The translations under genes were made by a program, and so were the position numbers. Below the pieces are notes generated by a model. That model was not told the DNA's origin, ran no database searches, and was given only the letters and a program-made list of their open reading frames with translations. From Massilia sp. 9I (GTDB taxonomy: Bacteria > Pseudomonadota > Gammaproteobacteria > Burkholderiales > Burkholderiaceae_D), in NCBI RefSeq assembly GCF_902506415.1, contig NZ_LR733275.1, positions 2,519,795 through 2,583,794 of the forward strand: a DNA stretch of 64,000 nt, given 5' to 3'. This document shows, piece after piece, positions 5,807 to 44,002 of this stretch (the stretch's first letter is position 1; each line of letters opens with the position of its first letter).

Positions 5807-5835
5807 TTGCCGGAAAAGCAAACTCGGCATATATA
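5807..5835 (+). promoter_or_regulatory. Candidate sigma70 promoter of the mannoside operon
   Basis: TTGCCG (5807-5812) and TATATA (5830-5835) are separated by exactly 17 bp. Transcription would begin near 5842. That places the upstream in-frame ATG at 5835 inside the -10 and so supports translation starting at 5868. Confidence 0.55.
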
Positions 5836-5867
5836 TGCAAGACGAGAATGCCATCGTTGGAGACCAC

Positions 5868-15400: not shown

Positions 15401-15524
15401 ATTCATCTTGGGTTCCTGATAATATTGTTTGTGGCATCAGCCGCAAACCAGACCGGGAACGACAAGATGGACGCGAGACCACCAGCACCGATCGCCGGCG
15501 TCACGCCACCCGAGGGAGGGTGAC

Positions 15525-17624
15525 ATGCGCGTCCTGCGCACCCTCTTTCTTTTCCTGCTCCTGTTCCACGCCGCCTGGGGCCAAGCCGCGCCATCGAGCG
15601 AGACCGGCCATGCGCGCGCCAGCCTGCTGCTGCACGCGCCCGCCGGCATCAAGCCCGGCGCCGAGGTCTGGCTCGGCCTGCGCATCCAGCACCAGCCGCA
15701 CTGGCACACCTACTGGTTGAATCCCGGGGATTCCGGCCTGCCGACCACCATGGCATGGACCCTGCCGCCCGGCTTCCGGGCCGGCGACATCGCCTGGCCG
15801 ACGCCGAAACAGCTGCCGCTCGGCCCGCTGATGAATTATGGCTACGACGGCGACCTGCTGCTGCCGGTACGCCTCGCCGTCCCGGCGGACTACCGGGGCG
15901 GCCCCGTGCCGGTCAAGCTGCGCGCCGACTTCCTGATCTGCGAAGAAGTCTGCATTCCCGAGTTCGCCGAACTCGATACCGTGCTCGATGCGGCGCCCGT
16001 GGCCACCGAGGCGACCCTGTTCGAGCGCGCCTTGGCCGCCGCGCCGCTCACGCTGCCGGGCGTCAAGGCGACGGCGCGCTTCGACGGCCATGCCCTCCTG
16101 ATCGAGGCCTCCGGCCTGCCCGCCGCCTACCAAAACCAGCCGTTGCAGCTGTTCCCGGAAAACGGCGCGGTACTCGACCACCCCGCGCCGCTGGCTCAGG
16201 AATGGCAGGGCGGGCGCCTGCTGCTGCGCGCCCCGCTGTCGGCCCAGCGCAGCGACAGTCCCGCCTCGATGGATGCCGTGATCACGGCCGGCCACAAGAC
16301 CCCCGGCATCCGCGTCAGCTTTGCGGTCGTGGGACCGTGGCCGAAGCCCGGCGCCGCCATGCCGGCAAGCGCGGCGCCGGCGCCGGCGAGCGCGCCACCT
16401 CCTGCTGCCGACCGTCCCTGGCTGGTGGTACTGGCCCTGGCCTTCCTCGGCGGCGCCATCCTCAACCTGATGCCCTGCGTGTTCCCGGTGCTGTCCCTCA
16501 AAGTCCTCGGCTTTGCCCAGCACGGCGGCGAACGCCGGCGCATCGTCGCCGGCGGCTTTGCCTACACTGCCGGCGTGATCGCCTCCTTCCTGCTGCTGGC
16601 CGCGCTGCTGCTGGGCCTGCGCGCCAGCGGCGAACAGTTGGGCTGGGGCTTCCAGCTGCAGTCGCCGGTATTCGTCGCGGCGCTCGCCATCCTGTTCACC
16701 CTGATCGGCTTCAACCTGGCCGGCCTGTTCGAGTTCCGCCACCTGCTCCCGAGCCGCATCCTGAGTGCACGCGCCCGCAACCCGGTGGCGGACGATTTCC
16801 TCACCGGCGTGCTGGCGGTCGCCGTGGCTTCGCCCTGCACTGCGCCCTTCATGGGTGCGGCCCTGGGCGCCGCCCTGGCGCAGCCCGCACCGCAGGCCTT
16901 GTCCGTGTTCGCGGCGCTCGGCGCCGGCATGGCGGCGCCCTACCTGGCCGCCAGCCTGTTCCCCGGCCTGGCCAGCGTGCTGCCGCGCCCCGGGCCGTGG
17001 ATGGTCCGCTTCAAGGTCTTCATGGCCTTCCCCATGTTCGCCACCGTGGTGTGGCTGCTGTGGGTGCTGGGGCTGCAGGCGGGCGTGGATGCGATCGCCG
17101 CGGTCCTGGGGCTGATCGTCGCCGCCTCCTTCGGCGTGTGGGTGCTGGGTATCCCGGCGCGGGGCCATGCGGGCCGGTGGATCGGCATCGGCGCCACCAT
17201 GCTGGCCCTCGCGGGCGCGGCCGCCTGGGCCTGGCCCGCTTTCAAGGACGCACAAGCCGGAACGCCGGCGGCAGCGGCATCAAGCGAATGGCTGGCATGG
17301 TCCCCCGAGGCAGTGCGCGAGGCGCGCCGGCAGGGGCGGCCGGTGTTCGTGGATTTCACCGCCGCCTGGTGCGTCACCTGCCAGTACAACAAGCGCACCA
17401 CCCTGGCTGATCCGGCCGTGATGGCCGATTTCAGGGCGCGCAAGGTCGTGCTGCTGCGGGCCGACTGGACCCGGCGCGACGAAACGATCACGCAGGCACT
17501 CAAGGAGCTCGGACGCAGCGGCGTGCCGGTGTATGCGCTGTACCGCATTGGTGCGGCGCAACCCACGCTGCTGTCGGAACTCCTGAGCGTGGACGAAGTC
17601 CGGCAGGCGCTCGCCGCGCCCTGA
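15525..17624 (+). CDS. DsbD-like protein-disulfide reductase
   Basis: The 699-residue membrane protein passes electrons from the cytoplasm to periplasmic thiol proteins. A signal peptide ends near GQA. The N-terminal periplasmic domain (about 25-280, DsbC-like/DsbD-alpha type) contains CEEVC. About eight membrane helices (about 300-575) carry the paired Cys in NLMPCVFP (Cys318) and ASPCTAPF (Cys438). The C-terminal thioredoxin-fold domain has WCVTC with Cys616 and Cys619. This three-part layout is diagnostic for DsbD/ScsB proteins. GGAGG eight bases before 15525 sets the start. The adjacent redoxin gene is a likely client. Confidence 0.88.
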   Translation: MRVLRTLFLFLLLFHAAWGQAAPSSETGHARASLLLHAPAGIKPGAEVWLGLRIQHQPHWHTYWLNPGDSGLPTTMAWTLPPGFRAGDIAWPTPKQLPLGPLMNYGYDGDLLLPVRLAVPADYRGGPVPVKLRADFLICEEVCIPEFAELDTVLDAAPVATEATLFERALAAAPLTLPGVKATARFDGHALLIEASGLPAAYQNQPLQLFPENGAVLDHPAPLAQEWQGGRLLLRAPLSAQRSDSPASMDAVITAGHKTPGIRVSFAVVGPWPKPGAAMPASAAPAPASAPPPAADRPWLVVLALAFLGGAILNLMPCVFPVLSLKVLGFAQHGGERRRIVAGGFAYTAGVIASFLLLAALLLGLRASGEQLGWGFQLQSPVFVAALAILFTLIGFNLAGLFEFRHLLPSRILSARARNPVADDFLTGVLAVAVASPCTAPFMGAALGAALAQPAPQALSVFAALGAGMAAPYLAASLFPGLASVLPRPGPWMVRFKVFMAFPMFATVVWLLWVLGLQAGVDAIAAVLGLIVAASFGVWVLGIPARGHAGRWIGIGATMLALAGAAAWAWPAFKDAQAGTPAAAASSEWLAWSPEAVREARRQGRPVFVDFTAAWCVTCQYNKRTTLADPAVMADFRARKVVLLRADWTRRDETITQALKELGRSGVPVYALYRIGAAQPTLLSELLSVDEVRQALAAP

Positions 17625-17661: not shown

Positions 17662-18267
17662 ATGAAGCGCACCATCGCACTTTCGCTGTTTGCCGCCGGC
17701 CTCGCACTGCACGGCAGTGCCTTTGCCGAAGCCGTGGTCGGCCAGCCCGCCCCCGTCTTCAAGGGCGTCGACGCCGCCGGCAAGCCGGTATCGCTGGACC
17801 AGTACAAGGGCAAGTACGTGGTGCTCGAATGGGTCAACCCGGAGTGCCCCTTCGTGAAGAAGCATTACGACAGCGGCAACATGCCCACCACCCAGAAGTA
17901 CGCCGTCGACAAGGGCGTAGTCTGGCTGGCCGTGAGCACCAGCGCCGACGGCGACCGCGCCGGCAAGTCGGCCGCCATCAGCGACTGGGTGAAGTCGAAG
18001 AAGGCCATGCCCACCGCGACCATCATGGACACGGGCGGCGCCATCGGCCGCGCCTACGGCGCCCGCACCACCCCGCACATGTACCTGATCGACCCGAGCG
18101 GAAAGCTGGTGTATGCAGGCGCGATCGACAGCAAGCCGACCGCCAACCCGGCCGACATCAAGGGCGCCACCAACTACATGGTGCAGGCGATCGACGAATC
18201 GCTCGCGGGCAAGCCGCTGAGCCAGGCAAGCACCAAGCCTTACGGCTGCTCGGTCAAATACGGCTGA
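17662..18267 (+). CDS. Secreted thioredoxin-fold protein (AhpC/redoxin type)
   Basis: A 201-residue exported redoxin. The signal peptide ends at AFA (residue 22). The thioredoxin-fold core is recognisable from VGQPAPVFKGVDAAGKPV and VVLEWVNPECPFVKKHY. It has one active-site Cys (Cys62 in ECPFVKK) instead of CxxC, like one-Cys redoxins of the peroxiredoxin-like group. A second Cys occurs only near the C-terminus (YGCSVKYG), so an intramolecular disulfide between them is possible. The cis-Pro loop is TTPHMY. It sits 37 bases after the DsbD-like gene with its own AGGAGG ribosome site, and probably forms a periplasmic thiol or peroxide-defence pair with it. Confidence 0.82.
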   Translation: MKRTIALSLFAAGLALHGSAFAEAVVGQPAPVFKGVDAAGKPVSLDQYKGKYVVLEWVNPECPFVKKHYDSGNMPTTQKYAVDKGVVWLAVSTSADGDRAGKSAAISDWVKSKKAMPTATIMDTGGAIGRAYGARTTPHMYLIDPSGKLVYAGAIDSKPTANPADIKGATNYMVQAIDESLAGKPLSQASTKPYGCSVKYG

Positions 18268-19294: not shown

Positions 19295-19304
19295 GACGAC
19301 GGGG

Positions 19305-19703
19305 TCAGCGGCCTGTCGCCGCCCCCTTTTCCGCGCGGGCGTCCCCCTCGTCCGCGCTCTCTTCCCTGATTTCCTTGCTGAGGAAGTAGTTCAGCGTGGT
19401 GCGGATCACCGCGATCGCGGCCAGCTTGCCGATCCGGTCCCAGGTCGGCGCCACCGCGGTCGACAGGATATCGGCGGCCAGCTGCAGTTCCAGCGCCAGG
19501 GTCAGGTAACGCGCAAAGGCCAGGCGGATCGGCGTGAAGCTGCCGCCGCGCGCGAACAGCAAGTGGCGCACCAGCGCCAGCACGACCACCACCAGCCCGG
19601 CCGCGATCACGATGGCGCCGAGCGCCTCGACCGCCAGGCGCAGCCACTCGACGCTGGCGCGCACCTGCTCCTCGGCCTGGCCGAACAGGCTGCCCGGCTC
19701 CAT
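19305..19703 (-). CDS. DUF1622 membrane protein
   Basis: The 132-residue protein has three hydrophobic segments, including ALGAIVIAAGLVVVVLALV, and the family core FTPIRLAFARYLTLALELQLAADILSTAV and IRTTLNYFLSKEI, here described by residues about 57-110. This matches the DUF1622 family of small inner-membrane proteins of unknown function. It is convergent with the hydrolase and divergent from the alcohol-dehydrogenase operon, so it appears to be transcribed alone. Confidence 0.75.
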   Translation of the reverse strand: MEPGSLFGQAEEQVRASVEWLRLAVEALGAIVIAAGLVVVVLALVRHLLFARGGSFTPIRLAFARYLTLALELQLAADILSTAVAPTWDRIGKLAAIAVIRTTLNYFLSKEIREESADEGDARAEKGAATGR

Positions 19704-19877
19704 CAGCGCAGCACCACGCTGCAGGGCAGCATGGTGACCCTCGTCAAACCTGTCAATTTCATCTCATCTCCCCCATCGTTTGCGCGACAAAGCATAGCCA
19801 ATTTGCGCATTCTGCCGCGTCCATTTGCTCAGCTGATCTGTGCGCCGATTTCGCTAGGCGCTTGGTATAAAGACATC

Positions 19878-21677
19878 ATGAATACTTCTTTTAATGGGTC
19901 GCTCTTGTGGTCCCGGCGCGCGGCGCGGACCGCCCTCCTGGCGCTGGCCTGCGCCGCCCCCTGCGCCCATGGCGCGGCGCCAGCTGCCGCCGACGGCGAA
20001 TGGCCGATGGCGGCGCGCGATTACGCGAGCACGCGTTTCAGTGGGCTGAACCAGATCACGCCCGCCAACATCAAGGGACTGCAGGTCGCCTTCACCTTTT
20101 CGGTCGGCGTCGACCGCGGACAGGAAGCCGCACCGATCGTGGTCGGTAGCACCATGTACGTGGTGGCGCCCTTCCCGAACTACCTGTATGCGCTCGATCT
20201 GTCCAAGCCGGGCGCGCCCCTGAAATGGAAATTCTCGCCGCACCCGAACCCGGGCGCCCAGGGCGTGGCCTGCTGCGACGTGGTCAACCGCGGCGTGGCC
20301 TACCACGAGGGCCGCATCTACATGAACACCCTGGACGGCCAGACCATCGCGGTGGACGCGGCCAGCGGCAAGGAAGCCTGGCGCACCAAGCTGGGCGACA
20401 TCAACAAGGGCGAGACCATCACCATGGCGCCGATCGTCGTCAAGGGCAAGGTCCTGGTGGGGAACAGTGGCGGCGAGTACGGCGTGCGCGGCTGGCTGGT
20501 GGCGCTGGACGCCGCCAGCGGCAAGGAAGCCTGGCGCGCCTGGAGCACGGGGCCGGACAGCGAGGTCCTGATCGGGCCCGACTTCAAGCCCTACTACGCC
20601 TCCGACAAGGGCAAGGACCTGGGCGTGAAGACCTGGCCGCCCGGCGCCTGGAAAATCGGCGGCGGCAACGTGTGGGGCTGGATCTCCTACGACCCGCAGG
20701 CCGACCTCATTTATTACGGCACCGCCAATCCCGGCCCCTGGAATCCGGAACAGCGCCCCGGCGACAACAAGTGGACCGCCGGGATCTTCGCGCGCGACCC
20801 CGACACCGGCCAAGCGCGCTGGTTCTACCAGTGGAGCCCGCACGACCTGCACGACTACGACGGCGTCAACGAGAACATCCTGCTCGACATGCCCTACAAG
20901 GGCGCCCAGCGCAAGCTCCTGGTGCACCCGGACCGCAACGGCTACGTCTACGTGATGGACCGGCTCAGCGGCCAGGTACTGAGCGCCGAGCCCTTCTCCA
21001 CCATCACCGCCACCGAAGGCGTGGACCTCGCTACGGGCAAGCTGAAATACAACCCGAAGAAGCAGCCCCGCGTCGGCCAGGCCGTGCGCGAGATCTGTCC
21101 CGCTTCGCCGGGCGCCAAGGACTGGCAGCCCTCGGCCTGGTCGCCGCGCACGGGCCTGCTCTACATCCCGCACCAGAACCTGTGCCAGGACGCGGCCACC
21201 TACGACGTCTCCTACATCGCCGGCACGCCTTTCGTCGGCCTGGACAACAAGATCTATCCGGCGCCCGGCAAACCGCGCGGCGAACTGACCGCCTGGGACG
21301 TCGCCAACGGCCGCGCCAGATGGTCGGTACCGGAACGCTTCCCGGTCTGGTCCGGCGCCCTGGCCACCGCCGGCGACGTGGTGTTCTACGGGACCATGGA
21401 CGGCTGGTTCAAGGCAGTAGACGCGCGCGACGGCAAGCCGCTGTGGCAGTTCAAGGTGGGCTCCGGCATCATCGGGCAGCCGATGACTTACCGCGGCCCG
21501 GACGGCAAGCAGTACGTGGCGGTGCTGTCGGGCGTGGGCGGCTGGGCCGGCGCAATCGTCGTGGGCGACCTCGACCCGCGCGACAGTACCGCCGCATCGG
21601 GCTTCGTCAACGTCATGCGCGACCTGCCGCAGCACACCGGGAAAGGAGGCATGCTGTATGTGTTCGCGCTCCCGTAA
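19878..21677 (+). CDS. PQQ-dependent alcohol dehydrogenase with lanthanide-type DxD motif
   Basis: A 599-residue periplasmic quinoprotein of the methanol/ethanol dehydrogenase family. It oxidises alcohols and passes electrons to cytochrome c. The signal peptide ends near AHG. Beta-propeller repeats show the W-motifs (ALDAASGKEAWRAW and similar). The vicinal disulfide Cys132-Cys133 (VACCDVV) lies over PQQ. The catalytic region HDYDGVNE has Asp326 and Asp328: the extra Asp two residues after the catalytic Asp is the mark of lanthanide-using XoxF/ExaF enzymes and is Ala or Thr in calcium enzymes. The ribosome site is weak, and a TATAAA at 19866-19871 lies very close to the ATG. First gene of an operon that reaches 28145. 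Confidence 0.9.
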   Translation: MNTSFNGSLLWSRRAARTALLALACAAPCAHGAAPAAADGEWPMAARDYASTRFSGLNQITPANIKGLQVAFTFSVGVDRGQEAAPIVVGSTMYVVAPFPNYLYALDLSKPGAPLKWKFSPHPNPGAQGVACCDVVNRGVAYHEGRIYMNTLDGQTIAVDAASGKEAWRTKLGDINKGETITMAPIVVKGKVLVGNSGGEYGVRGWLVALDAASGKEAWRAWSTGPDSEVLIGPDFKPYYASDKGKDLGVKTWPPGAWKIGGGNVWGWISYDPQADLIYYGTANPGPWNPEQRPGDNKWTAGIFARDPDTGQARWFYQWSPHDLHDYDGVNENILLDMPYKGAQRKLLVHPDRNGYVYVMDRLSGQVLSAEPFSTITATEGVDLATGKLKYNPKKQPRVGQAVREICPASPGAKDWQPSAWSPRTGLLYIPHQNLCQDAATYDVSYIAGTPFVGLDNKIYPAPGKPRGELTAWDVANGRARWSVPERFPVWSGALATAGDVVFYGTMDGWFKAVDARDGKPLWQFKVGSGIIGQPMTYRGPDGKQYVAVLSGVGGWAGAIVVGDLDPRDSTAASGFVNVMRDLPQHTGKGGMLYVFALP

Positions 21678-22482
21678 ATTGGCCGGCCTCCTCGGCCTGG
21701 CCGTTGCCGCATTCGGCGCCGCCCCTGCCGGCGCCTCCGGCCTCGAACTGCGCGTCTGCGCCGAACCCGACAACCTGCCCTATTCGCGGCGCGACGAGAG
21801 CGGCTTCGAGAACCGCATCGCGCGCCTGGTGGCGCAGGACATGGGCGCGACCCTGCGCTACTTCTGGCAGGAGCAGCGCCTCGGCTTCGTGCGCAAGACC
21901 ATGGGCGCCGGCCAATGCGACGTGTTCATCGGCGTGCCCGCCGGCTTCGAGCGCGTGCTGCCTACCCGGCCCTACTACCGCTCGTCCTATGTCGCCGTGC
22001 GGCGCGCCGCCGACGCTCCCTTCGCCTTCGAGGATGCCACGGTGCGCACGCGCCGCATCGGCGTGCAGCTGGTCGGCGACGACCTCGCCGCCAGCCCGCC
22101 CGGCCACGCCCTGGTGCGCGCCGGCGCGGTCGACAACGTCACCGGTTTTCTCGTCTATGGCGAAGGCCCGGCGGCCCAGCGCATGGTCGATGCCGTGGCC
22201 GCAGGCAGCATCGACGTCGCCCTGGTGTGGGGGCCGCAGGCCGGCTGGTACGCACAGCGCAGCGCCGTGCCGCTCGCGCTGCAGCCCCTCGGCCAGCCCC
22301 AGGGCCTGCCGATGCCTTTCAGCTATGCCATCGCAATGGGCGTGCCCAAAGGCGCGAGCGCACTGCGCGACCGGCTCGACGAGATCCTGCAACGGCGCCG
22401 CGCCGACATCGACGCGATCCTCGCCGAGTATGCGGTGCCGCGCAGCGAGCTTGCCGCCGTCGCCGAAGGAGCGCGGCCATGA
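21658..22482 (+). CDS. MxaJ/XoxJ-type periplasmic protein associated with quinoprotein dehydrogenase
   Basis: The 274-residue exported protein has a solute-binding-protein fold. Its opening ELRVCAEPDNLPYSRRDESG and the later QCDVFIGVPAGFERVLPTRPYYRSSYV are typical of the quinoprotein-dehydrogenase-associated family that includes MxaJ and XoxJ. Those proteins help to mature or activate the dehydrogenase rather than feed an ABC transporter. The gene overlaps the dehydrogenase by 20 bases. Its own AGGAGG site lies inside the upstream coding sequence, and it overlaps the following cytochrome gene by ATGA. Confidence 0.85.
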   Translation: MCSRSRKLAGLLGLAVAAFGAAPAGASGLELRVCAEPDNLPYSRRDESGFENRIARLVAQDMGATLRYFWQEQRLGFVRKTMGAGQCDVFIGVPAGFERVLPTRPYYRSSYVAVRRAADAPFAFEDATVRTRRIGVQLVGDDLAASPPGHALVRAGAVDNVTGFLVYGEGPAAQRMVDAVAAGSIDVALVWGPQAGWYAQRSAVPLALQPLGQPQGLPMPFSYAIAMGVPKGASALRDRLDEILQRRRADIDAILAEYAVPRSELAAVAEGARP

Positions 22483-22994
22483 AGCGCGCGTTTGCATTCC
22501 TCGCTACCGTGCTGGTCCTGGCGGGCTGCTACCGCGAACAGCGTCCGGTGAAGGCGCCGCCGGCCGCCTCCGGCGTGGCCGACCGTTCCTACGCGGCCCG
22601 CGAAGACACGGCGGTCGTCAACCGCTACGAGGAGAACGCCTTTGCGGTCTCGCAGGGCAAGACCTGGTTCCGGGCCTATAACTGCAATGGCTGCCATGCC
22701 TCCGGCGGCGGCAACAGCGGCCCGGCCCTGATGGACGCCACCTGGCGCTACGGGTCCGACCCGGCCAGCATCTTTACCAGCATCGCGGCCGGGCGGCCGA
22801 ACGGCATGCCGGCCTTCGGCAAGCGCGTCCCGGAAGACCAGATCTGGCAGCTGGTCGCCTACGTGCGCTCGATGAGCGGACAATTGTCGGGCAGCGTGGC
22901 GCCCTCGCGCAGCGACAGCCTGTATCCGGGCGAACCGGAATCGCGGCGCGAGCCGGAGCAGCCCAAGGGCGAAGCGCCGCCGGCGGAGCGCTGA
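22479..22994 (+). CDS. Cytochrome c lipoprotein, probable dehydrogenase electron acceptor
   Basis: The 171-residue lipoprotein (LAGC, lipid Cys17) has one haem-binding motif CNGCH (69-73) and distal-ligand candidates in NGMPAF (Met) near residue 108. Its family pattern, YNCNGCHASGGGNSGPALMD followed by WRYG and GRPNGMPAFG, is typical of cytochromes encoded beside PQQ dehydrogenases. The C-terminal 35 residues are a low-complexity Pro/Glu tail. Position between the dehydrogenase and oxidase subunit II suggests that it carries electrons from PQQ to the oxidase while anchored to the membrane. ATGA overlap with the gene before, two bases from the gene after. Confidence 0.85.
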   Translation: MKRAFAFLATVLVLAGCYREQRPVKAPPAASGVADRSYAAREDTAVVNRYEENAFAVSQGKTWFRAYNCNGCHASGGGNSGPALMDATWRYGSDPASIFTSIAAGRPNGMPAFGKRVPEDQIWQLVAYVRSMSGQLSGSVAPSRSDSLYPGEPESRREPEQPKGEAPPAER

Positions 22995-22996
22995 GC

Positions 22997-24016
22997 ATGC
23001 GCGCCACGGTTCTTCCTTGCCTGCTGTTCGCCGCCGCACCCGCCCTGGCGCAGACGCCCGCCCAGAGCGCGCTGCGGCCGACCGGCATCCAGGCCGAACA
23101 CATCGGCTGGCTGTGGAACCTGACCCTGGGGATCTGCACGCTGGTCTTCCTCGCTGTGGTCGCCGCATGCCTAGTGGCCCTGCGGCGCGCGCCCAAGGAT
23201 GGCGCGGGCCATACGCCCGACCTGGATTCGCTGGTGCGCCCCGAGCGCCGCATCCACCGCACGATAGGCTGGGCGGTGGGGGTGTGCACCGTGCTGCTGC
23301 TGGTCCTGCTGGCCGCCGACGTGTTCACCAGCCGCGCGCTGGCCAGGATGCCCCTGAAGAACGCCGTCAACATCGAACTGGTCGGCCACCAGTGGTGGTG
23401 GGAGGCGCGCTACCAGTTCGCGGACACCTCGCTCAATTTCAGCACCGCCAACGAACTGCACATCCCGGTCGGACGCCCGGTCGTGATCAGCCTGCGCAGC
23501 ATCGACGTCATCCATTCGCTGTGGATCCCGAACCTGCACGGCAAGCGCGACCTGATTCCCGGCCGCACCGCCCTGCTGCGCCTGCGCGCCGACCGGGCCG
23601 GCGTCTACCGCGGCCAGTGCGCCGAATTCTGCGGCCTGCAGCACGCCAAGATGGCGCTCGAAGTGATGGCCGAGCCGCCGGCGCAATACGAGGCCTGGGC
23701 GGCGCGCCAGCGCCAGCCGGCGCACGAGCCGGCGGATCAGCTCAGCCTGCGCGGGCGCGCGGTCTTCGAAGATGGCACCTGCATCATGTGCCACACGGTG
23801 AACGGCACCATCGCCCAGGGCAAGCTCGGCCCCGACCTGACCCACCTGGGCAGCCGCCGGACCATCGCGGCCGGCATGTTCCCGAACAATCGCGGATTCT
23901 TGAGTGGCTGGATCGCCGACCCGCATTCGATGAAGGAGGGTGTGAACATGCCTGCCAACGCCCTCGCACCCGACGACCTGCAGGCGCTGGCCGCCTATCT
24001 GGAGAGCCTCAAATGA
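22997..24016 (+). CDS. coxB: Cytochrome c oxidase subunit II with fused cytochrome c domain
   Basis: A 339-residue caa3-type subunit II. The signal peptide (PALAQ) is followed by two membrane helices (about 35-60 and 90-115), the aromatic stretch GHQWWWEARY, and the CuA site with Cys208-AEF-Cys212, His216 and Met219. A C-terminal cytochrome c domain with CIMCH (262-266) and an MPANAL Met ligand is fused, so the complex can take electrons directly from soluble or lipid-anchored cytochromes. The gene overlaps subunit I by ATGA. Confidence 0.92.
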   Translation: MRATVLPCLLFAAAPALAQTPAQSALRPTGIQAEHIGWLWNLTLGICTLVFLAVVAACLVALRRAPKDGAGHTPDLDSLVRPERRIHRTIGWAVGVCTVLLLVLLAADVFTSRALARMPLKNAVNIELVGHQWWWEARYQFADTSLNFSTANELHIPVGRPVVISLRSIDVIHSLWIPNLHGKRDLIPGRTALLRLRADRAGVYRGQCAEFCGLQHAKMALEVMAEPPAQYEAWAARQRQPAHEPADQLSLRGRAVFEDGTCIMCHTVNGTIAQGKLGPDLTHLGSRRTIAAGMFPNNRGFLSGWIADPHSMKEGVNMPANALAPDDLQALAAYLESLK

Positions 24017-25938
24017 GTATCGACGCCGCCGACAGCGCGTTCCCCCGCCTGCCGCCGCACGAGGCTGCAACGCTGGAGCGGACCTGGAGCGACCCACCCG
24101 GCGTCTATGGCTGGTTCTCCGCGGTCAACCACAAGACCGTCAGTCTGCGCTTCATGATCGTGACCTTCGGCTTTTTCGTCGCCGGCGGCATCCTGGCCCT
24201 GATCATGCGGCTGCAGCTGGCCAAGCCCGATAACACTCTGGTCAAGCCGGACTTCTACAACCAGCTGTTCACCATGCACGGCAGCACCATGATGTTCCTG
24301 TTCGCCGTGCCGGTGATGCAGGCCGTCGCGATGTACCTAGTGCCGCTGATGATCGGTGCGCGCAGCGTGGCCTTCCCGCGCATGAACGCCTTCGCATTCT
24401 GGATCTTCACCTTCGGCGGGCTGATGCTGTACATCGCCTTCTTCCTCGACATCGGCCCCGACGTCGGCTGGTTCGCCTATGTTCCGCTGGCCGGGCCGCA
24501 GTTCTCGCCCGGCAAGCGCGTCGACTTCTGGGCGCAGATGATCACCTTCACCGAAACCGCGTCCCTGATGGAGGCGATCATCCTGATCACCACCATCCTC
24601 AAGATGCGCGCGCCCGGCATGACCCTGAACCGCATGCCGCTGTTCGTCTGGACCATGCTGGTGACCTCCTTCATGGTGCTGTTCGCGATGCCGGCCGTGA
24701 TGCTGGCCAGTACCGCCCTGATCACCGACCGCCTGGTCGGCACCCACTTCTACAACCCAGCGGAAGGCGGCGACGCGGTATTGTGGCAGCACCTGTTCTG
24801 GTTCTTCGGCCACCCCGAGGTCTACCTGATCTTCATCCCGCCGCTCGGCTTCATCTCGAGCATCGTGACCACCTTCGCGCGCCGCCCGGTGGTGGGCTAT
24901 CCGGCCATGGTGCTGGCCCTGATCGCCACCGCCTTCTTCGCCTTCGGCCTGTGGGTGCACCACATGTTCACCGCCAACCTGCCGGAGCTGGGCAAGACCT
25001 TCTTCACCGCGGCCAGCCTGATCATCGCGATCCCGACGGCGGTGCAGATCTTCTGCTGGATCGCCACCCTGTGGAGCGGCCGGCTCGACCTGCGCACACC
25101 GCTGCTGTTCGTGCTGGCCTTCTTCGTGATCCTGCTGCTGGGCGGCCTGACCGGCCTGATGCTGGCCTCGGTCTCGCTCGACACCCAGCTGCACGACAGC
25201 TACTTCGTGGTCGCCCACCTGCATTACGTGCTGCTGGGAGGCGCGGTGTTCCCGCTGTTCGGCGCCTTCTATTACTGGTTCCCCAAATTCACCGGGCGCA
25301 TGCTGAGCGAGCGCCTGGGGCGCTGGAACTTCTGGCTGTTCTTCATCGGCTTCAACGTCGCCTTCTTCCCCATGCACCTGCTGGGCCTCGAGGGCATGCC
25401 GCGCCGCGTGTACGCCTATCCCAAGGAGATGGACTGGGGCGCGATGAACCTCGTCGCCACCCTCGGCGCGGCCATGATTGCCGTGAGCGTGCTGCTCTTC
25501 ATCGTCAACGTGCTGCGCAGCCGGCGCCACGGCGAGCTGGCAGGGAGCGACCCGTGGCAGGCCGGCACCCTCGAATGGAGCGTGGCCTCGCCTCCGCCGG
25601 CCGGCAATTTCGAGCTGGTGCCGGTGGTGCATGGCCGCTATCCGCTCTGGCTGCCGCGCCGCACGCCCGCCTACGTGACGGGCCTCACCAGCGAGCACCG
25701 CGAAGTCCTGGTGACCTCGGTGGCCGACGCGGAACTCGACCACCGCCTGTGGCTGCCCAAATCCTCGCCCTGGCCCTTCCTGGCGGCGCTCGCCACCACC
25801 GCCTTCTTCGTGGGCAGCATCTTCACGCCCTGGGCGGTGGTCTGGGGCGCCATTCCGGTTGCGATCGCCGCCACCGTCTGGTTCTGGCCGAGCAAGTCGA
25901 CCACCGAGAAGCGTACTGCCAGCGAGGTGCGGCCATGA
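24013..25938 (+). CDS. ctaD: Cytochrome c oxidase subunit I, extended form
   Basis: The 641-residue haem-copper oxidase catalytic subunit is about 100 residues longer than common subunit I. The CuB and cross-linked Tyr region is HPEVY (His267, Tyr271) with Glu269 of the D-channel as in A-type oxidases. His316-His317 complete CuB, and His402/His404 ligate the haems. The extra C-terminal region (after about 540) adds hydrophobic helices (FLAALATTAFFVGSIF and AVVWGAIPVAIAATVWFW), as in caa3-type enzymes where subunit I has taken over helices from subunit III. Proton-pumping terminal oxidase of the inner membrane. ATGA overlaps at both ends. Confidence 0.92.
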   Translation: MSIDAADSAFPRLPPHEAATLERTWSDPPGVYGWFSAVNHKTVSLRFMIVTFGFFVAGGILALIMRLQLAKPDNTLVKPDFYNQLFTMHGSTMMFLFAVPVMQAVAMYLVPLMIGARSVAFPRMNAFAFWIFTFGGLMLYIAFFLDIGPDVGWFAYVPLAGPQFSPGKRVDFWAQMITFTETASLMEAIILITTILKMRAPGMTLNRMPLFVWTMLVTSFMVLFAMPAVMLASTALITDRLVGTHFYNPAEGGDAVLWQHLFWFFGHPEVYLIFIPPLGFISSIVTTFARRPVVGYPAMVLALIATAFFAFGLWVHHMFTANLPELGKTFFTAASLIIAIPTAVQIFCWIATLWSGRLDLRTPLLFVLAFFVILLLGGLTGLMLASVSLDTQLHDSYFVVAHLHYVLLGGAVFPLFGAFYYWFPKFTGRMLSERLGRWNFWLFFIGFNVAFFPMHLLGLEGMPRRVYAYPKEMDWGAMNLVATLGAAMIAVSVLLFIVNVLRSRRHGELAGSDPWQAGTLEWSVASPPPAGNFELVPVVHGRYPLWLPRRTPAYVTGLTSEHREVLVTSVADAELDHRLWLPKSSPWPFLAALATTAFFVGSIFTPWAVVWGAIPVAIAATVWFWPSKSTTEKRTASEVRP

Positions 25939-26555
25939 GCGAGCTGAGGAAAGAAGGCCGGCAGTCCGAGGCGCTCGACGTCTGTCACCTGCCCACCTTC
26001 GCCTTCGGCCAGCGCAGCCCCATGTGGTGGGGCACCATGGGCCTGATCGCGATCGAGACCACGGTGTTCGCGCTGGTCGTGATGAGCTATTTCTATCTGC
26101 GCAGCCATGCCAGCGTGTGGCCGATGAGCCGCTTCGCGCCCGAGCTGGTCTGGGGCACCGTGAATACCGGGATCATGCTGTTCAGTGCCCTGCCCAACTG
26201 GTACGCCAAGCGCGCCAGCGAGCGCCTCGATCTCAAGGGCGTGCGCATCGGCCTGATCCTGTGCATGCTGTTCTCGGCAGCCTTCCTGGGCGTGCGCGTC
26301 ATGGAATTCACCGCCCTGAACACGCGCTGGGACAGCAACGCCTACGGCTCCGTGGTCTGGATGCTGCTCGGCCTGCACACCGTGCACCTGGTCACCGACA
26401 CCTACGACACCCTGGTGCTGACGGTGCTGATGCACACCGGCCCGCTCGAAGGCAAGCGTTACGTCGACGTGAGCGAGAACTGCGCCTACTGGTACTTCGT
26501 CATCTTCAGCTGGATACCGATCTATGCCGTCATCTATTGGGGAGCACGCATCTGA
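25935..26555 (+). CDS. Cytochrome c oxidase subunit III, short form
   Basis: The 206-residue membrane protein matches subunit III (WWGTMGLIAIETTVFALVV, LGLHTVHLVTDTYDT, then VSENCAYWYFVIFSWIPIY). It has about five helices, two fewer than classical seven-helix subunit III, consistent with the longer subunit I. It overlaps the subunit I stop by ATGA. A stabilising role for the oxidase is expected. Confidence 0.88.
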   Translation: MSELRKEGRQSEALDVCHLPTFAFGQRSPMWWGTMGLIAIETTVFALVVMSYFYLRSHASVWPMSRFAPELVWGTVNTGIMLFSALPNWYAKRASERLDLKGVRIGLILCMLFSAAFLGVRVMEFTALNTRWDSNAYGSVVWMLLGLHTVHLVTDTYDTLVLTVLMHTGPLEGKRYVDVSENCAYWYFVIFSWIPIYAVIYWGARI

Positions 26556-26557
26556 AT

Positions 26558-26890
26558 ATGGGAAACTGGCCCGCTCTGATCCTTGCGCCCTCACTGGCGC
26601 TGGTAAACCTGTCGATCAGCTACGCGCTGGTGCCGCCGTCATGCGCGCACCAGAACACGGTCGCCCTGCACCTGGTCTCGGCGGCCATCCTGCTGCTGTG
26701 CATCCTGTTCAGCTGGCAGGCCTGGCGCAACTGGCGCGCCGCGCGCGTCGCGCTGCCTTCCGACAGCGACCGCCGCGCCCAGCGACCGCCCTTTGTCGCG
26801 ATGGTCGCCATGATGGTCGGCGCGCTGTCCAGCCTGGCCGTGCTGGCCCAATGGTTCCCCAGCTGGATACTCTCGCCATGCGCAAACTGA
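26558..26890 (+). CDS. Small membrane protein of the oxidase operon
   Basis: The 110-residue protein has three hydrophobic stretches (LILAPSLALVNLSISYALV, HLVSAAILLLCILF and VAMMVGALSSLAVLAQWF). I recognise no named domain. Its place between subunit III and the CtaG-like assembly factor, two bases after subunit III and overlapping ctaG by 13 bases, argues for an oxidase-associated subunit or assembly helper. Confidence 0.7.
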   Translation: MGNWPALILAPSLALVNLSISYALVPPSCAHQNTVALHLVSAAILLLCILFSWQAWRNWRAARVALPSDSDRRAQRPPFVAMVAMMVGALSSLAVLAQWFPSWILSPCAN

Positions 26891-27789
26891 CCCTTTTCCT
26901 TTGCTGGCTGCTCGCGGCCCGTGCGCAGGCCCACGACGTCGAGCAGGAAGTCGTGGCCAAGGACGTGCTGCGCTGGGGCTCCGAGTGGTACGTGATGGCC
27001 CTGCTGGCGCTGTCGCTCGGCCTGTATGTGCTCGGCGCGGCGCGCCTGTGGCGGCGCGCGCACGGTTCGCGGGCAGCCTTGCGGCGCCAGTTCGCCTGCT
27101 TCCTGGGAGGATGGATCGTGCTGGCGCTGGCCCTGGCCTCGCCCATCGACGGCGCCGGCAGCCTGGCCTTCTCGGCCCACATGGTGCAGCACGAGCTATT
27201 GATGATCGTGGCCGGGCCGCTCCTGGTATTGGGACGCCCGCTCGGGGCGTGGACCTGGGCGCTTCCCGCGGCCTGGCGCGGGGGCGTGGGACGGGCGACC
27301 CATGGCCGCCTGCTTTCCGTGTTCTGGCGCGAGATCACGCGGCCGCTGACGGCCTGGCTGCTGCACTTTGCCGCCCTGTGGGTATGGCACGTGCCGTTCC
27401 TGTTCCAGGCCGGCCTCGAGGACAACAACGTGCACGCCCTGCAGCACGCCAGCTTCCTGTTCACCGGACTGCTGTTCTGGTGGGCAGTGCTGGGCAAGCA
27501 CCGCAGGAGCGCCGCGCGCGGCGCCGGCATCGTCTACCTGTTCACCACCATGATGTACACCGGCGCGCTGGGCGCCCTGTTCACCGTATCGGAATCGATC
27601 TGGTATCCCGCCTACGGCCACAACGCCACCTACTTCGGCCTCACGGCGCTGGAAGACCAGCAGCTGGGCGGCCTGATCATGTGGATCCCGGCCGGCCTGG
27701 TCTACCTGGCGGCGGGGCTGATGCTGTCGGCAGGCTGGCTGCAGCGCGGCGATACGGCCGCCGGGCTGAGCTTGGGAGCGCGGCAATGA
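26878..27789 (+). CDS. ctaG: Caa3-type cytochrome oxidase assembly protein CtaG
   Basis: The 303-residue protein has an N-terminal signal-like segment (LFLCWLLAARAQAH) and seven hydrophobic segments with the family landmarks SAHMVQHELLMIVAGPLLVLG, described by residues about 98-118, then LWVWHVPFLFQAGLEDNNVHALQH and TMMYTGALGALFTVS. This is the Caa3_CtaG family required for copper insertion and assembly of caa3 oxidases, unrelated to the Cox11-type CtaG. Conserved His residues in the helices are likely metal ligands. Starts inside the preceding gene and overlaps the next by ATGA. Confidence 0.85.
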   Translation: MRKLTLFLCWLLAARAQAHDVEQEVVAKDVLRWGSEWYVMALLALSLGLYVLGAARLWRRAHGSRAALRRQFACFLGGWIVLALALASPIDGAGSLAFSAHMVQHELLMIVAGPLLVLGRPLGAWTWALPAAWRGGVGRATHGRLLSVFWREITRPLTAWLLHFAALWVWHVPFLFQAGLEDNNVHALQHASFLFTGLLFWWAVLGKHRRSAARGAGIVYLFTTMMYTGALGALFTVSESIWYPAYGHNATYFGLTALEDQQLGGLIMWIPAGLVYLAAGLMLSAGWLQRGDTAAGLSLGARQ

Positions 27790-28145
27790 AGGCGGCCGCT
27801 CTGTTCCTCGTGCTGGCGGCGCTCGCCGGCTGCGAAAAGCGCTTGCCTGACATCGATCCCCTGAGCGGCGGCTCGCCGCGCGCCGGCAAGGAATTGATCG
27901 AACGTTTCGGCTGCGTCGCCTGCCACCGGATCAAGGGGATCACCGGGCCGCGTAGCAAGGTCGGCCCCTCCCTGGAAGAGATCCGCCAGGCCAGCTACGT
28001 CGCCGGCGTGATGCCGAACAGCCCCGGCAACCTGGTCAAATGGATCATGGACCCGCGCGAGGTGGATCCCAAAACGGCGATGCCCGACCTGGGCGTGACC
28101 GAGGCCGAGGCGCGCGACATGGCGGCCTACCTGTACAACCAGTAG
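27786..28145 (+). CDS. Small cytochrome c lipoprotein at the operon end
   Basis: The 119-residue lipoprotein (LAGC, lipid Cys16) has haem motif CVACH (43-47) and a distal Met in TAMPDLGV. The fold is a class I cytochrome c of minimal size. It follows ctaG with an ATGA overlap and ends the dehydrogenase-oxidase operon. It probably acts as a membrane-anchored electron carrier to the CuA domain. Two distinct lipoprotein cytochromes in one operon suggests one for the dehydrogenase side and one for a general input. Confidence 0.82.
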   Translation: MKAAALFLVLAALAGCEKRLPDIDPLSGGSPRAGKELIERFGCVACHRIKGITGPRSKVGPSLEEIRQASYVAGVMPNSPGNLVKWIMDPREVDPKTAMPDLGVTEAEARDMAAYLYNQ

Positions 28146-28148
28146 CCA

Positions 28149-28193
28149 CCGCACCAAAGGACAATATCGACAAGATGACAATCCGCCTACAGT
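28149..28193 (+). promoter_or_regulatory. Candidate activator-dependent promoter (site plus TACAGT -10)
   Basis: ACCAAAGGACAA (28153-28164) is followed after exactly 23 bp by TACAGT (28188-28193), a good -10 with no recognisable -35. The same site-to--10 spacing is found at 30919-30963, so the two promoters are probably controlled by the same activator. Transcription would start near 28200, ahead of the EAL gene. Confidence 0.5.
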
Positions 28194-28253
28194 CCTGATG
28201 CAAGCATCGGCAAAGCATCTACCTGCCGTCCCCCAGGACCCGGAGAGAACGTC

Positions 28254-30260
28254 ATGTTGTCGCAATACAAACAATCTAGCCCGGCGCGGCCGCGCGCTTC
28301 CCGGATCGGCGTGGATCCGCGCGCCTGCATCCTCGCCTTGAGCGCCATCGCGCTGGGTCTCGCCACGGCGGCCTTCGCCCCTGTCGTGCGGCTGCCGCCA
28401 GCCGCCTTTCTGGCTGGAAGCAGCCTGGCGCTCCTGCTCGCCCTGTCGCTATCGGCCTGGCGCCGCCATGCGCGCGCCCAGCGTTCACTCAACGCCAGCC
28501 GTTCGGGCTGGCGCGATTTCCAGCAGCTGGCAGGCATCGGCAGCCTGCGCTATGGCCTCGACGACGGCATCTGGCATGCTTCCTCGACCTTCGTGGCGCT
28601 GACCGGCCTTGGAACCGGCGCAGGGCATGGGCCCGCAGAATTGTTCGGCCTGCTCGGCAGGCGCGACCGGGTCAGGCTGCAACGCGCGGTGCGCGCGGCG
28701 TGGATCGATGGCGAGAGCTTCGACCACGACATGCTGCGGCTCAGCCTGGCCGACGGCAGCACGCGCTGGGTGCACCTGCGCGGCCGGGTCAGCGAGCGCG
28801 GAAAGGGCGCCATGGTCCTGCTATGCACCATCCAGGACATCAGCCGGCGCTCCCAAGCCGTCAGTGCGGCCGGCGACCCCGACGCCCGCGACGCGCTGAC
28901 CGGCCTGCCGGGCCAGGGCGCACTCGCGGGCCGCCTGTTGCTGCTGCAGCGCGAGGCGCGCCAGCGGACCGGGCTGCTCATGCTCGACCTCGACCATTTC
29001 AGCATGTTCAACGCCGCCCAGGGAAGCGATCGCGGCAACCTGCTGCTGCGCGCCGTGGCCGCGCGCATCCAGTTCCGGCTCGGGCCGGACGCACTGGCGA
29101 CGCGGGTGCGCGCCGACCGCTTCGCGGTGCTGCTCACCGACCTGCCCTGGTCGGCGGGCGCCGCGCACGAGCACGTGGTCCGCGTCGCCGAGGCCTTGCG
29201 CGACGCGCTGGCCGAACCCTTCGAGCTCGACGGCCTGCGCCAGGCCTGCACGGCCAGTATCGGCCTGGCCCTCGCAGCGCCGGATACGCCGCCGGCCCGG
29301 GAGCTCATGCGGCGTGCCGAGAACGCGCTGACCCAGGCCAAGGCAGGCGGTCGCAACCTGATCCGCCTGTATGACCCGGCAATGGAAGCGGTCGAGGCGG
29401 CCCGCCTCGCGCTCGAGAACGACCTGCGCCTGGCGGTGTCGAGCGGCCAGTTCGAACTGCATTATCAGGCCCAGGTCGACAGCGCCGACCGCATCCTCGG
29501 CGCCGAGGTGCTGGTGCGCTGGCGCCACCCGCTGCGAGGCCTGGTGCCGCCCGCCAGCTTCATTCCCTTGTGCGAAGGTACCGGCCTGATCCTCCCGCTC
29601 GGGCGCTGGGTGCTGGAGACGGCCTGCGCGCGCCTGGCGGCCTGGTCGGGCGACCCGCTGCTGGGCGACCTGACGCTGTCGGTGAACGTCAGCGCCGCCC
29701 AGTTCACCGAACCAGGTTTCGTCGACCAGGTTTTGGCCACCCTGGCGCACAGCGGCGTGGACGCGCGCCGTCTCAAGCTGGAACTGACCGAGGGCCTGCT
29801 GCTGGCCGACACCGAGGGCGTGATCGCGACCATCCGGGCCCTGAAGGATGCCGGGGTCGGCATCTCGCTCGACGATTTCGGCACCGGCTACTCCTCGCTC
29901 GCCTACCTCAAGCGGCTTCCGATCGACCAGCTCAAGATCGACCGCACCTTTGTCGCCGACGTCCTGAGCGACGCCAACGACCTGGCCATCGTGCGCACCG
30001 TGGTGGCGCTGGGCCGCAGCTTCGGCCTCGAAGTGGTGGCGGAAGGCGTGGAGACGGATGCGCAGCGGGCCCTCTTGACCGAGCTCGGCTGCCGCGTATT
30101 CCAGGGCTTCCTGTTCTCGCGCCCGCTGAGCCTGGCAGGGTTCGAGGAACTGGTTGGCCGCTGCGGCCGCATTGCCGCTGCCCGCGAGGCAGTTGCTCCG
30201 GTCCCGGAATATGCGTTATCGTGTGTCCGTGGAGATAATATGCGCCATGCAGATGAGTGA
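28254..30260 (+). CDS. PAS-GGDEF-EAL signalling protein with degenerate GGDEF
   Basis: The 668-residue protein has two N-terminal membrane helices (about 25-62), a PAS-like domain (about 85-200), a GGDEF domain (about 215-375) and an EAL domain (about 390-640). The cyclase signature is replaced by RADRF (286-290), so diguanylate cyclase activity is unlikely. The EAL domain keeps EVL (418-420), the NVSAAQF Asn, ELTEG Glu, DDFGTGYSSL with Asp540-541, Lys in LKIDRTF and VVAEGVE, so it should hydrolyse c-di-GMP. The GGDEF part may instead sense GTP. The end overlaps the following FixJ-type regulator by 14 bases, which suggests a joint pathway. Confidence 0.87.
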   Translation: MLSQYKQSSPARPRASRIGVDPRACILALSAIALGLATAAFAPVVRLPPAAFLAGSSLALLLALSLSAWRRHARAQRSLNASRSGWRDFQQLAGIGSLRYGLDDGIWHASSTFVALTGLGTGAGHGPAELFGLLGRRDRVRLQRAVRAAWIDGESFDHDMLRLSLADGSTRWVHLRGRVSERGKGAMVLLCTIQDISRRSQAVSAAGDPDARDALTGLPGQGALAGRLLLLQREARQRTGLLMLDLDHFSMFNAAQGSDRGNLLLRAVAARIQFRLGPDALATRVRADRFAVLLTDLPWSAGAAHEHVVRVAEALRDALAEPFELDGLRQACTASIGLALAAPDTPPARELMRRAENALTQAKAGGRNLIRLYDPAMEAVEAARLALENDLRLAVSSGQFELHYQAQVDSADRILGAEVLVRWRHPLRGLVPPASFIPLCEGTGLILPLGRWVLETACARLAAWSGDPLLGDLTLSVNVSAAQFTEPGFVDQVLATLAHSGVDARRLKLELTEGLLLADTEGVIATIRALKDAGVGISLDDFGTGYSSLAYLKRLPIDQLKIDRTFVADVLSDANDLAIVRTVVALGRSFGLEVVAEGVETDAQRALLTELGCRVFQGFLFSRPLSLAGFEELVGRCGRIAAAREAVAPVPEYALSCVRGDNMRHADE

Positions 30261-43400: not shown

Positions 43401-44002
43401 GACAGCGCCCAGCCGTACAGGCCGAATTCCAGGTATTCCTCGATGTTGGCCGGGTTCAGCACCGGCATGCCCCAGGCCATGAAAGCATGGTCGCTCTGGT
43501 GCGGCATCGACGAGGACACGCAACCGTGGTCGTCGCCGGCCACCACCAGCACCCCGCCCAGCGGCGAGGAACCATAGGCATTGCCGTGCTTGAGCGCGTC
43601 GCCGGCGCGGTCCACGCCCGGGCCCTTCCCGTACCACATGGCGAACACGCCATCGACCGTGCGGTTCGGATCGCCGCCGACCTGCTGGGTGCCGAGAACG
43701 GCGGTCGCGCCCAGTTCTTCGTTAATCGCGGGCAGGAATTCGATCGCGTGCTGCTGCAGGATGTTCGATGCGCGCCAGACTTCCTGGTCGACCGCACCCA
43801 GCGGGGAGCCGCGGTAGCCCGAGATGAAGCCGGCGGTATCCAAGCCGGCGCGTTCGTCGAGCGCCTTTTGCATCACCGTCAGGCGGATCAGCGCCTGGGT
43901 CCCGGTCAGGAACACCCGTCCCTGCTGGCGCGTCAGGTTGTCGTCCAGGCGGTAGGAAGGATCGACCAGCGCCGACCCCACCTCCTCGTGCATCGTTCCC
44001 AT
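40460..44002 (-). CDS. Fused indolepyruvate ferredoxin oxidoreductase
   Basis: The 1180-residue enzyme decarboxylates aryl-pyruvates such as indolepyruvate (from aromatic amino-acid breakdown) to acyl-CoA and passes electrons to ferredoxin or a substitute. The N-terminal part resembles the pyrimidine half of the TPP enzyme (GYRGSPLG). A TPP-binding part follows (GDGTYYHSG and ILYNDAVAMTGGQP). Near the middle comes CEGCGDCGVQSNC, an iron-sulfur motif, and then the gamma-type domain (VAGVGGTGVVTVG). Alpha, beta and gamma parts are fused in one chain, as in aerobic proteobacteria. ATG 44002 has a TGGAGA ribosome site; an ATG at 44050 would add 16 residues. Divergent from an Lrp-type regulator. 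Confidence 0.9.
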   Translation of the reverse strand: MGTMHEEVGSALVDPSYRLDDNLTRQQGRVFLTGTQALIRLTVMQKALDERAGLDTAGFISGYRGSPLGAVDQEVWRASNILQQHAIEFLPAINEELGATAVLGTQQVGGDPNRTVDGVFAMWYGKGPGVDRAGDALKHGNAYGSSPLGGVLVVAGDDHGCVSSSMPHQSDHAFMAWGMPVLNPANIEEYLEFGLYGWALSRFSGAWVGFKAISETVEGGAVVELPEAPMFKEPEGYARPGDGLHYRWPDLPSLAIEQRVADKLQAVHAFAAVNSIDKLVVPAPGAMLGIIAAGKAYLDLLEAFERLGITLDQLEALGLRLYKPGLTFPLERSRLHAFAHGLAEVLVVEEKGDVIEGQLKSLLYNLAPDARPQVLGKHDLAGAPLLSSLGELRPSRIAPVLVSWLAPKLPQLRLEEFLPQFCRAEVLSNGADAVKRTPYFCSGCPHNTSTRVPEGSRALAGIGCHFMASWMQRDTFTLTQMGGEGVPWVAASRFTREKHVFQNLGDGTYYHSGYLAIRQAIAARTNITYKILYNDAVAMTGGQPVDGSLSVPQILQQVLSEGAALAVVVTDQPENYQGITLPAGVTVHHRSELDAVQRRLRELPGVTVLVYDQTCAAEKRRRRKKNKPDNIVFPDPPRRMVINPAVCEGCGDCGVQSNCLSILPLETPLGRKRQIDQASCNKDYSCVEGFCPSFVSVIGGRLKKPAAASLELRQLEEMLAAYPLPPAYGFAKPFEMLVAGVGGTGVVTVGALITMAAHLEGKGASTLDFMGFAQKGGAVMSHVRLAPSPKLLHQVRIDLQQADALLACDLVVAAMPDALAVMRRGHTRVVANENETPTAEFTRDPDADIRKDDLLAKITDAGGPTLRLNAQQVAASVLGDPIGANILMMGAAWQLGLVPVSLEALMRAIELNGVAVEMNKKAFMLGRLVAADEKAAARLAQPARVVQFTPPASLEELVAFRVDWLTQYQDAAYAERFRAAVAGVEARELEIDGPDSKRAVAKAIARSLFKVMAYKDEYEVARLHTRTGFLEGLAQQFEGDFRVEYHLAPPLLARKKPGSDVPAKMRFGPWMRSAFRMLAPLKALRGTVFDPFGYTHERRAERRLRDDTLALAGMLASELNAGNRAAALKLAQLPESIRGYGHVKAANMARAETEAARLLQTFRQPVKEVVLVRKMAETGS

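Follow-up and report, generated by a model that had tools for sequence, protein, structure and literature searches.

An XoxF3-like dehydrogenase that probably serves its own caa3-type oxidase, one without the usual proton-channel residues, in Massilia sp. 9I

Why should the gene of an alcohol dehydrogenase dependent on pyrroloquinoline quinone (PQQ) stand in one row with the genes of a complete terminal oxidase, and what kind of oxidase keeps such company? The question is raised by a stretch of 64,000 nucleotides (nt) from Massilia sp. 9I (NZ_LR733275.1, positions 2,519,795–2,583,794; the whole analyzed stretch, hereinafter the window), where nine plus-strand genes at positions 19878–28145 run from a dehydrogenase of the XoxF type to a lipoprotein-like cytochrome c. 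The answer regarded here as likely, judging from gene content and conserved residues, is that an XoxF3 system feeds its own caa3-type oxidase with no need for the cytochrome bc1 complex, that this oxidase has lost the standard proton routes, and that PQQ is probably imported. A new union of dehydrogenase and oxidase was considered and dismissed: xoxF3/cox/ctaG clusters (PMC10875860) and cytochrome c oxidase (COX) operons with PQQ dehydrogenases (PMC4013037) are already in print. The worthwhile remainder is the oddity of the oxidase channel residues together with the apparent PQQ dependence of the host.

The nine-gene row had been proposed in a sequence-only reading of the window, and it was recovered as nine open reading frames (ORFs) on the plus strand in the frames implied there; the proposed gene identities were borne out by TIGRFAM and Pfam matches along with CxxCH and lipobox-like motifs (family cut-offs, in bits: TIGR03075, 480; TIGR03871, 212; TIGR02891, 671; Caa3_CtaG, 27.7; TIGR02866, 147.7). 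The genes are as follows:

19878..21677, plus strand: xoxF, 599 aa (TIGR03075, 634 bits; best solved chain 4mae; lanthanide residues; tree position)
21658..22482, plus strand: xoxJ, a periplasmic substrate-binding-like partner of quinoprotein dehydrogenases (TIGR03871, 268.6 bits)
22479..22994, plus strand: lipoprotein cytochrome c, likely the XoxG counterpart (one CNGCH, lipobox-like LAGC, Cytochrome_CBB3, 54.4 bits)
22997..24016, plus strand: coxB, subunit II with a CuA site and a fused cytochrome c, caa3 type (Pfam COX2, Cytochrom_C)
24013..25938, plus strand: coxA, haem-copper oxidase subunit I, 641 aa (TIGR02891, 707 bits)
25935..26555, plus strand: coxC, subunit III, short form, 206 aa (Pfam COX3, 36.9 bits, above the cut-off)
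26558..26890, plus strand: three-helix membrane protein with two cysteines (predicted fold; no Pfam family)
26878..27789, plus strand: ctaG, caa3-type oxidase assembly factor (Pfam Caa3_CtaG, 197.5 bits)
27786..28145, plus strand: second lipoprotein cytochrome c (one CVACH, lipobox-like LAGC, Cytochrom_C, 28.8 bits, above the cut-off)

The six overlaps named in the same reading all have correct coordinates, i.e., xoxF/xoxJ at 21658–21677, xoxJ/cytochrome c at 22479–22482, coxB/coxA at 24013–24016, coxA/coxC at 25935–25938, small protein/ctaG at 26878–26890, and ctaG/second cytochrome c at 27786–27789. The other two junctions are 2-nt gaps, one between the first cytochrome c gene and coxB (22994/22997) and one between coxC and the small-protein gene, provided that the ATG at 26558 is the start. 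Such spacing suggests co-transcription of the nine genes. A consensus scan of 19300–28400 was uninformative, with no promoter-like sites (0.7 expected) and, over both strands, six terminator-like sites (3.8 ± 2.2 expected), the two on the plus strand lying inside coxA and ctaG, with none past 27449; Rfam and tRNA scans gave no match. CoxB scored just under the TIGR02866 cut-off (145.4 bits) and passed those of Pfam COX2 and Cytochrom_C; both the cytochrome c fused to subunit II and the CuA site, which characterize caa3 oxidases, are present in the window.

The evidence that the two halves of the row belong together comes from other genomes. Named genomes were scanned with an alignment of six XoxF sequences, and a relative was encoded in 583 of at least 592 matched stretches; the best 80 stretches, picked by XoxF similarity and not by linkage, were kept and, together with genomes of the class, order, and family (flanks of selected matches), provided 123 distinct XoxF-like rows. 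A locus was taken as fully flanked when 6.5 kb or more lay on its downstream side and 3 kb or more on its upstream side, and as linked if cox1 lay within 7 kb. Among the 100 rows whose XoxF is at least 53% identical to that of the window, 74 were fully flanked, and cox1 was found within 7 kb in 65 of these 74; the corresponding figure for the 23 rows below 53% identity, 19 of them fully flanked and including the second PQQ dehydrogenase of the host, was 0/19. Under a looser rule, which admits linked loci on short contigs, 75 of 84 loci were linked. At two of them (L100 and L108), the cox1 near xoxF is in two pieces, possibly owing to a frameshift or an assembly error.

The XoxF–cox1 link spans five named phyla and is confined to XoxF3-like proteins, with no linked rows among those grouping with the XoxF1, XoxF2, and XoxF5-type references. 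Carriers of the cluster among the named genomes include Noviherbaspirillum soli, Azohydromonas australica, Mesorhizobium, and Microvirga; the closest named XoxF matches, among the matches listed, are those of N. soli and a Massilia metagenome-assembled genome. In the family survey, 45 of 392 genomes had an XoxF match at E ≤ 1e-150, and the listed identities fell into two groups (≥58% and ≤52%). The full nine-gene order on a single strand is repeated in three same-genus loci (L241–L243). Co-directional xoxF > cytochrome > cox2 > cox1 > cox3 > ctaG was seen in 48 of the 75 linked loci, the same order without ctaG in that place in six, and an otherwise arranged or cut order in seven; this gene order is more than chance. 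Distances between XoxF proteins correlate with those between their CoxA neighbors (Mantel r 0.61, n = 71; the highest of 2000 permutations gave 0.24), shared species history adding to this correlation. The dehydrogenase–oxidase pair with lipid-anchored cytochromes proposed in the sequence-only reading stands as far as the belonging together of the two is concerned (five phyla, correlated distances), but not as a new union. Overall, that interpretation finds partial support, and most of it had been known before; it mentioned neither the lost proton-channel residues nor the missing PQQ synthesis genes.

The dehydrogenase itself, proposed earlier as a PQQ alcohol dehydrogenase, can be specified further: by its residues and tree position, it is a lanthanide-type PQQ enzyme, XoxF. 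It exceeds the cut-off of the PQQ methanol/ethanol dehydrogenase family (TIGR03075), its best solved match is a methanol dehydrogenase chain, 4mae, which we take to be the XoxF of a verrucomicrobial methanotroph, and it possesses all four lanthanide-type residues, E172, N256, D299, and D301 (4mae numbering), presumably involved in lanthanide binding or catalysis. Across 73 linked XoxF rows, D301 and E172 are invariant (73/73 each), and N256 and D299 are each found in 72. A calcium enzyme of the MxaF type is ruled out by D301. In the XoxF tree (FastTree, 122 rows), the window protein falls into a clade of 84 rows with a local support of 100 (67 linked, 13 without data, and 4 unlinked rows), apart from a clade of 23 rows, none of them linked, which holds the references 4mae, 7o6z, and 6oc5, presumably representing the XoxF1, XoxF2, and XoxF5 types; loci with two matches carry the label of the second match, so the linked L122 and L126 appear as rows without data. 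This position rules out a canonical XoxF5. Six linked rows sit in small branches outside both clades (L051, L138, L139, L146, L147, and L254).

The 84-row clade is read here as XoxF3 because published XoxF3 clusters share its gene content and kinds of organisms, the label being drawn from gene content and taxa rather than from a placed sequence labeled XoxF3 in print. The carriers of XoxF3 in print comprise Acidobacteria, Gemmatimonadetes, Verrucomicrobia, Mesorhizobium, and Azospirillum (PMC10875860, PMC7065363), and XoxF3 is described as being without biochemical data (PMC10875860). In Methylosinus trichosporium, cerium is documented to raise the level of the XoxF3 protein.

The second part of the question concerns the oxidase. 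The D- and K-channel residues are regarded as essential from site-directed work on aa3-type oxidases. The window CoxA retains the six tested haem/CuB histidines and the cross-link tyrosine (Tyr280), and its CtaD family membership by sequence (TIGR02891, 707 bits) holds despite the loss of Lys354. In Paracoccus denitrificans numbering, K354 is replaced by glutamine (Q345), D124 by serine (S118), and N113 by methionine (M107); the N199 position is occupied by isoleucine (I190), and E278 is present as E269. Judged by the type A1 fingerprint (PMC3084760, Table 2), the haem/CuB ligands, Tyr280, and E278 are in place, and D124, N113, N199, and K354 are missing. A type B or C oxidase was rejected, CoxA being above the CtaD cut-off and scoring far lower on ccoN.

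These peculiarities are shared by the linked oxidases. The comparison covers 71 linked CoxA, i.e., the 75 linked loci minus four with a short cox1 match (L078, L100, L108, and L140), which include close kin (several Mesorhizobium and Bradyrhizobium) and are therefore not independent. All 71 conserve the six haem and CuB histidines, and none has K354, replaced by Q in 59, A in 8, T in 2, G in 1, and S in 1. D124 is retained in 20, including all 15 proteins with tryptophan in place of E278, and D124 or E278 is missing in 66 of the 71. In the controls, ordinary oxidases of the same order chosen from the best matches and not at random, N113, D124, N131, E278, T351, and K354 are all present in 23/23 rows (19 distinct proteins and four duplicates). 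The xExxWT motif of CoxB, which we take to be the K-channel entry glutamate of subunit II, was found in 0/75 linked loci vs. 5/5 control CoxB, and the CuA motif and CxxCH were found in 75/75. In the CoxA tree (FastTree, channel columns kept in; 106 rows, 102 different), the loss of K354 appears as one change, that of D124 as one change, and the PWVY group as one clade at 99; this places the loss of K354 at the root of the oxidase branch and that of D124 inside it. The window oxidase probably functions without the standard proton routes.

K-channel variants have been mapped on a tree of archaeal family A and B oxidases, one hypothesis involving seven K-channel losses in family A (PMC8239418, Degli Esposti 2021). 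In the open-licence PMC literature, as far as its text was available, no paper was found linking channel losses to XoxF-linked oxidases, though the losses in this branch may already be covered by Degli Esposti 2020, to which PMC8239418 refers for variants of the D channel.

The electron path that these features suggest would start with the oxidation of an alcohol, methanol being the likeliest substrate, by a periplasmic XoxF dependent on lanthanide and PQQ. A cytochrome c tethered to the membrane would accept the electrons and deliver them to the CoxB cytochrome domain, from which they would travel through CuA and the low-spin haem to the haem–CuB center of the caa3-type oxidase, where oxygen would be reduced; XoxJ would help to activate the dehydrogenase, and CtaG the oxidase. 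The bc1 complex would not be needed in such a chain. This bypass, claimed as a feature of the locus in the sequence-only reading, is not special here, since known methanol dehydrogenases in general bypass bc1. The oxidase would derive from an A-family branch in which the K-channel lysine was lost, followed by the D-channel aspartate in this sub-branch; protons for the oxygen chemistry would take another route, with pumping probably reduced or absent, and the result may be a fast, low-yield electron sink. The host genome (5.5 Mb, rated 100% complete) has six COX1-family genes and cytochrome c1 (one of these genes, near C7:863799, gave a short match only and was left out of the extraction); therefore, the XoxF–oxidase chain would be an addition to the ordinary chain. 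Fae was not found in the host genome, and a glutathione-type formaldehyde dehydrogenase is present, which suggests that the setting would suit methanol oxidation for energy. A broader view, in which XoxF3 systems run on A-family oxidases devoid of both proton paths, non-pumping or differently pumping and matched to a lanthanide dehydrogenase for rate over yield and recruited from the PEVY and PWVY sub-branches, and in which the host chain depends on the PQQ of its neighbors, is speculative and, at present, rather doubtful. Of the 411 sequences of methanol dehydrogenases from a single site of granite and soil, 340 were XoxF3 (PMC10875860); should the oxidase pump few protons or none, soil methanol would yield less energy than assumed. 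Were the picture true, these systems would also represent natural experiments on aa3-type oxidases without D- and K-channel residues.

Several observations weigh against this picture, and some lend themselves to other explanations. In Methylocella silvestris, XoxF3 is reported as barely expressed, with no significant lanthanide effect at the transcript level. The oxidase may be an alternative cytochrome c oxidase for general use, open to any c-type cytochrome, and may have come to lie beside xoxF through shared regulation or joint transfer, which is considered unlikely. Nine fully flanked loci at or above 53% XoxF identity have no cox1 within reach (L105, L107, L116, L121, L136, L141, L142, L144, and L145), and in 14 of the 75 linked loci the oxidase is encoded on the same strand upstream of xoxF. 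K354 is also missing in 11/11 relatives counted as unlinked, so its loss does not depend on linkage to XoxF (among the 11, L189 is on a 3.3-kb contig, and the xoxF of that genome, L054, is at the end of another contig). The closest of these relatives, L185 and L186 from two genomes, are 70–71% identical to the window CoxA, lie in 20-kb stretches devoid of any xoxF match, and are the two unlinked relatives without D124; therefore, the oxidase has no fixed tie to XoxF. A general oxidase is also favored by a second host CoxA without the K-channel lysine (C7:4107108–4108991, L188), 48% identical, with D124 kept and situated beside cytochrome genes, for which no XoxF or XoxJ match was found in a 20-kb stretch. 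Still, a general oxidase hardly accounts for the restriction of the linkage to XoxF3-like proteins in five named phyla, for the correlated divergence of XoxF and CoxA, or for the tight gene overlaps. In the two closest relatives, the oxidase seems to change partners: three CxxCH motifs are carried by the ORF directly behind the ctaG ORF of L186, and a 783-aa frame from the ctaG start of L185 contains three such motifs.

Even if the electrons flow as supposed, the oxidase need not be non-pumping. D124 and E278 are both kept in five linked CoxA (L052, L053, L091, L117, and L134), and E181, in the predicted helix 169–197, could serve a new proton route: it is present in 56/56 PEVY-linked CoxA and in 11/11 relatives counted as unlinked, the position being glycine in all controls. 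Near-usual pumping via such replacement residues (E181 or other polar residues), compatible with the proposed electron path, is a possibility to be taken seriously, if not the favored one. It is backed by the glutamate at the N199 position in 24/56 PEVY-linked CoxA and by the function of type B and C oxidases with other channel residues (PMC3084760); it fits less well with the isoleucine and methionine that the window protein has at the N199 and N113 positions, and with the PWVY sub-branch, which possesses neither E278 nor E181. Finally, the enzyme could stand idle: no PqqC match was found in the host genome, the best PqqE match there scored 54.9 bits vs. a cut-off of 381, and PqqC and PqqE are both present in 16/16 other XoxF-bearing genomes tested. 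An inactive or decaying system in a host unable to make PQQ is nevertheless very improbable given that all nine frames are open, the tested catalytic residues are intact, a second PQQ dehydrogenase is retained, and many Gram-negative bacteria use PQQ without synthesizing it (PMC12124388). Since PqqC and PqqE were not found, the host probably imports PQQ for the XoxF3–oxidase chain preferred here. The second PQQ alcohol dehydrogenase (C7:1446542–1448059; L002, L200) is 41% identical to the window XoxF and has the lanthanide aspartate.

Among known systems, the canonical XoxF5, XoxF4, and MxaF clusters (xoxFGJ, mxaFJGI) resemble the window in combining a dehydrogenase, a J protein, and a cytochrome c, the XoxF ones also in their lanthanide residues, but differ in that no cox1 lies within 7 kb of the less similar xoxF-like genes (0/19). 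Cytochrome cL is soluble, whereas the first cytochrome of the window is lipoprotein-like. The XoxG of the published XoxF3 systems is termed membrane-bound (PMC10875860). The closest likeness is to these systems, in which xoxF3 is clustered with cox genes, ctaG, cytochrome c, xoxG, xoxJ, and the gene of a protein of ~110 aa (Voutsinos 2024, PMC10875860; operons of xoxF3 with cox and ctaG are credited there to its ref. 11, a mini-review): the gene set is the same and complete in the window (cox I–III, ctaG, cytochromes, XoxJ, and the ~110-aa protein), with the small-protein gene flanked by coxIII and ctaG. The published systems are from Acidobacteria, with the ~110-aa protein also in some Gemmatimonadetes and Verrucomicrobia, whereas the window cluster belongs to a betaproteobacterium, probably a member of the Oxalobacteraceae; the available text of PMC10875860 is silent on the missing channel residues and the loss of PQQ synthesis, both seen here.

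The COX operon type a-II, with a COX1 bearing a COX4-like extension, a 5-helix COX3, and often a PQQ methanol dehydrogenase (Degli Esposti 2014, PMC4013037), also shares the PQQ dehydrogenase and the short COX3 with the window. In type a-II, COX1 is fused with COX4, and the predicted CoxA structure (predicted local distance difference test score, pLDDT, 81) has two extra C-terminal helices (587–604 and 607–624); the type a-II dehydrogenase is described as MxaF-related (PMC4013037), whereas that of the window is XoxF. Type a-II and the class represented by the window may be the same. Operons that pair an electron donor with an oxidase, such as rus of Acidithiobacillus, similarly unite donor-side proteins with an aa3 oxidase, the donor being iron in rus and alcohol in the window.

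As for the accessory proteins, a counterpart of the first cytochrome c is present in 75/75 linked loci and is lipobox-like in 58 of them (by a loose pattern), hence membrane tethering of the carrier would be common; the second cytochrome c has a counterpart in 38/75, lipobox-like in 19. The small membrane protein is predicted to form three helices (pLDDT 89). With two spaced cysteines required, candidates were found behind cox3 in 48/51 loci (no pick in L073 and L146; a poor pick in L091 was dropped), and the alignment of 47 rows comprised the window protein and 46 of the 48 (L124 and L126 left out). Its sole invariant columns are C29 and C108, an invariance partly built in, as the cysteines were part of the selection. 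Pfam had no family for the window protein and matched nine families among the 47 members, one or two members each, all at E 0.001 or weaker. A structural similarity of the ~110-aa protein to vesicle-transport proteins has been put forward (PMC10875860) but is unsupported for the window protein, for which the PDB fold search returned none at E ≤ 0.001 and Pfam no family.

The row is bordered by two genes:

19305..19703, minus strand: divergent DUF1622 membrane protein, the upstream boundary of the row (PF07784, 90.3 bits)
28254..30260, plus strand: GGDEF-EAL protein, 108 nt downstream of the row (family match)

The GGDEF-EAL gene is probably outside the XoxF–oxidase system. Farther upstream, the plus strand encodes a DsbD-like protein (15429–17624) and an AhpC/TSA-family protein (17662–18267), and two neighboring GH92 glycosyl hydrolases (5835–10504, plus strand). 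Elsewhere in the window, the minus strand encodes a long protein of the indolepyruvate ferredoxin oxidoreductase family (40460–44050) and a TonB-dependent receptor under the siderophore-receptor cut-off (54512–56527). The minus strand also encodes a pectate lyase that bears a GDSL-type esterase domain (47669–49603); methanol arises naturally from pectin, and the lyase may provide an ecological tie.

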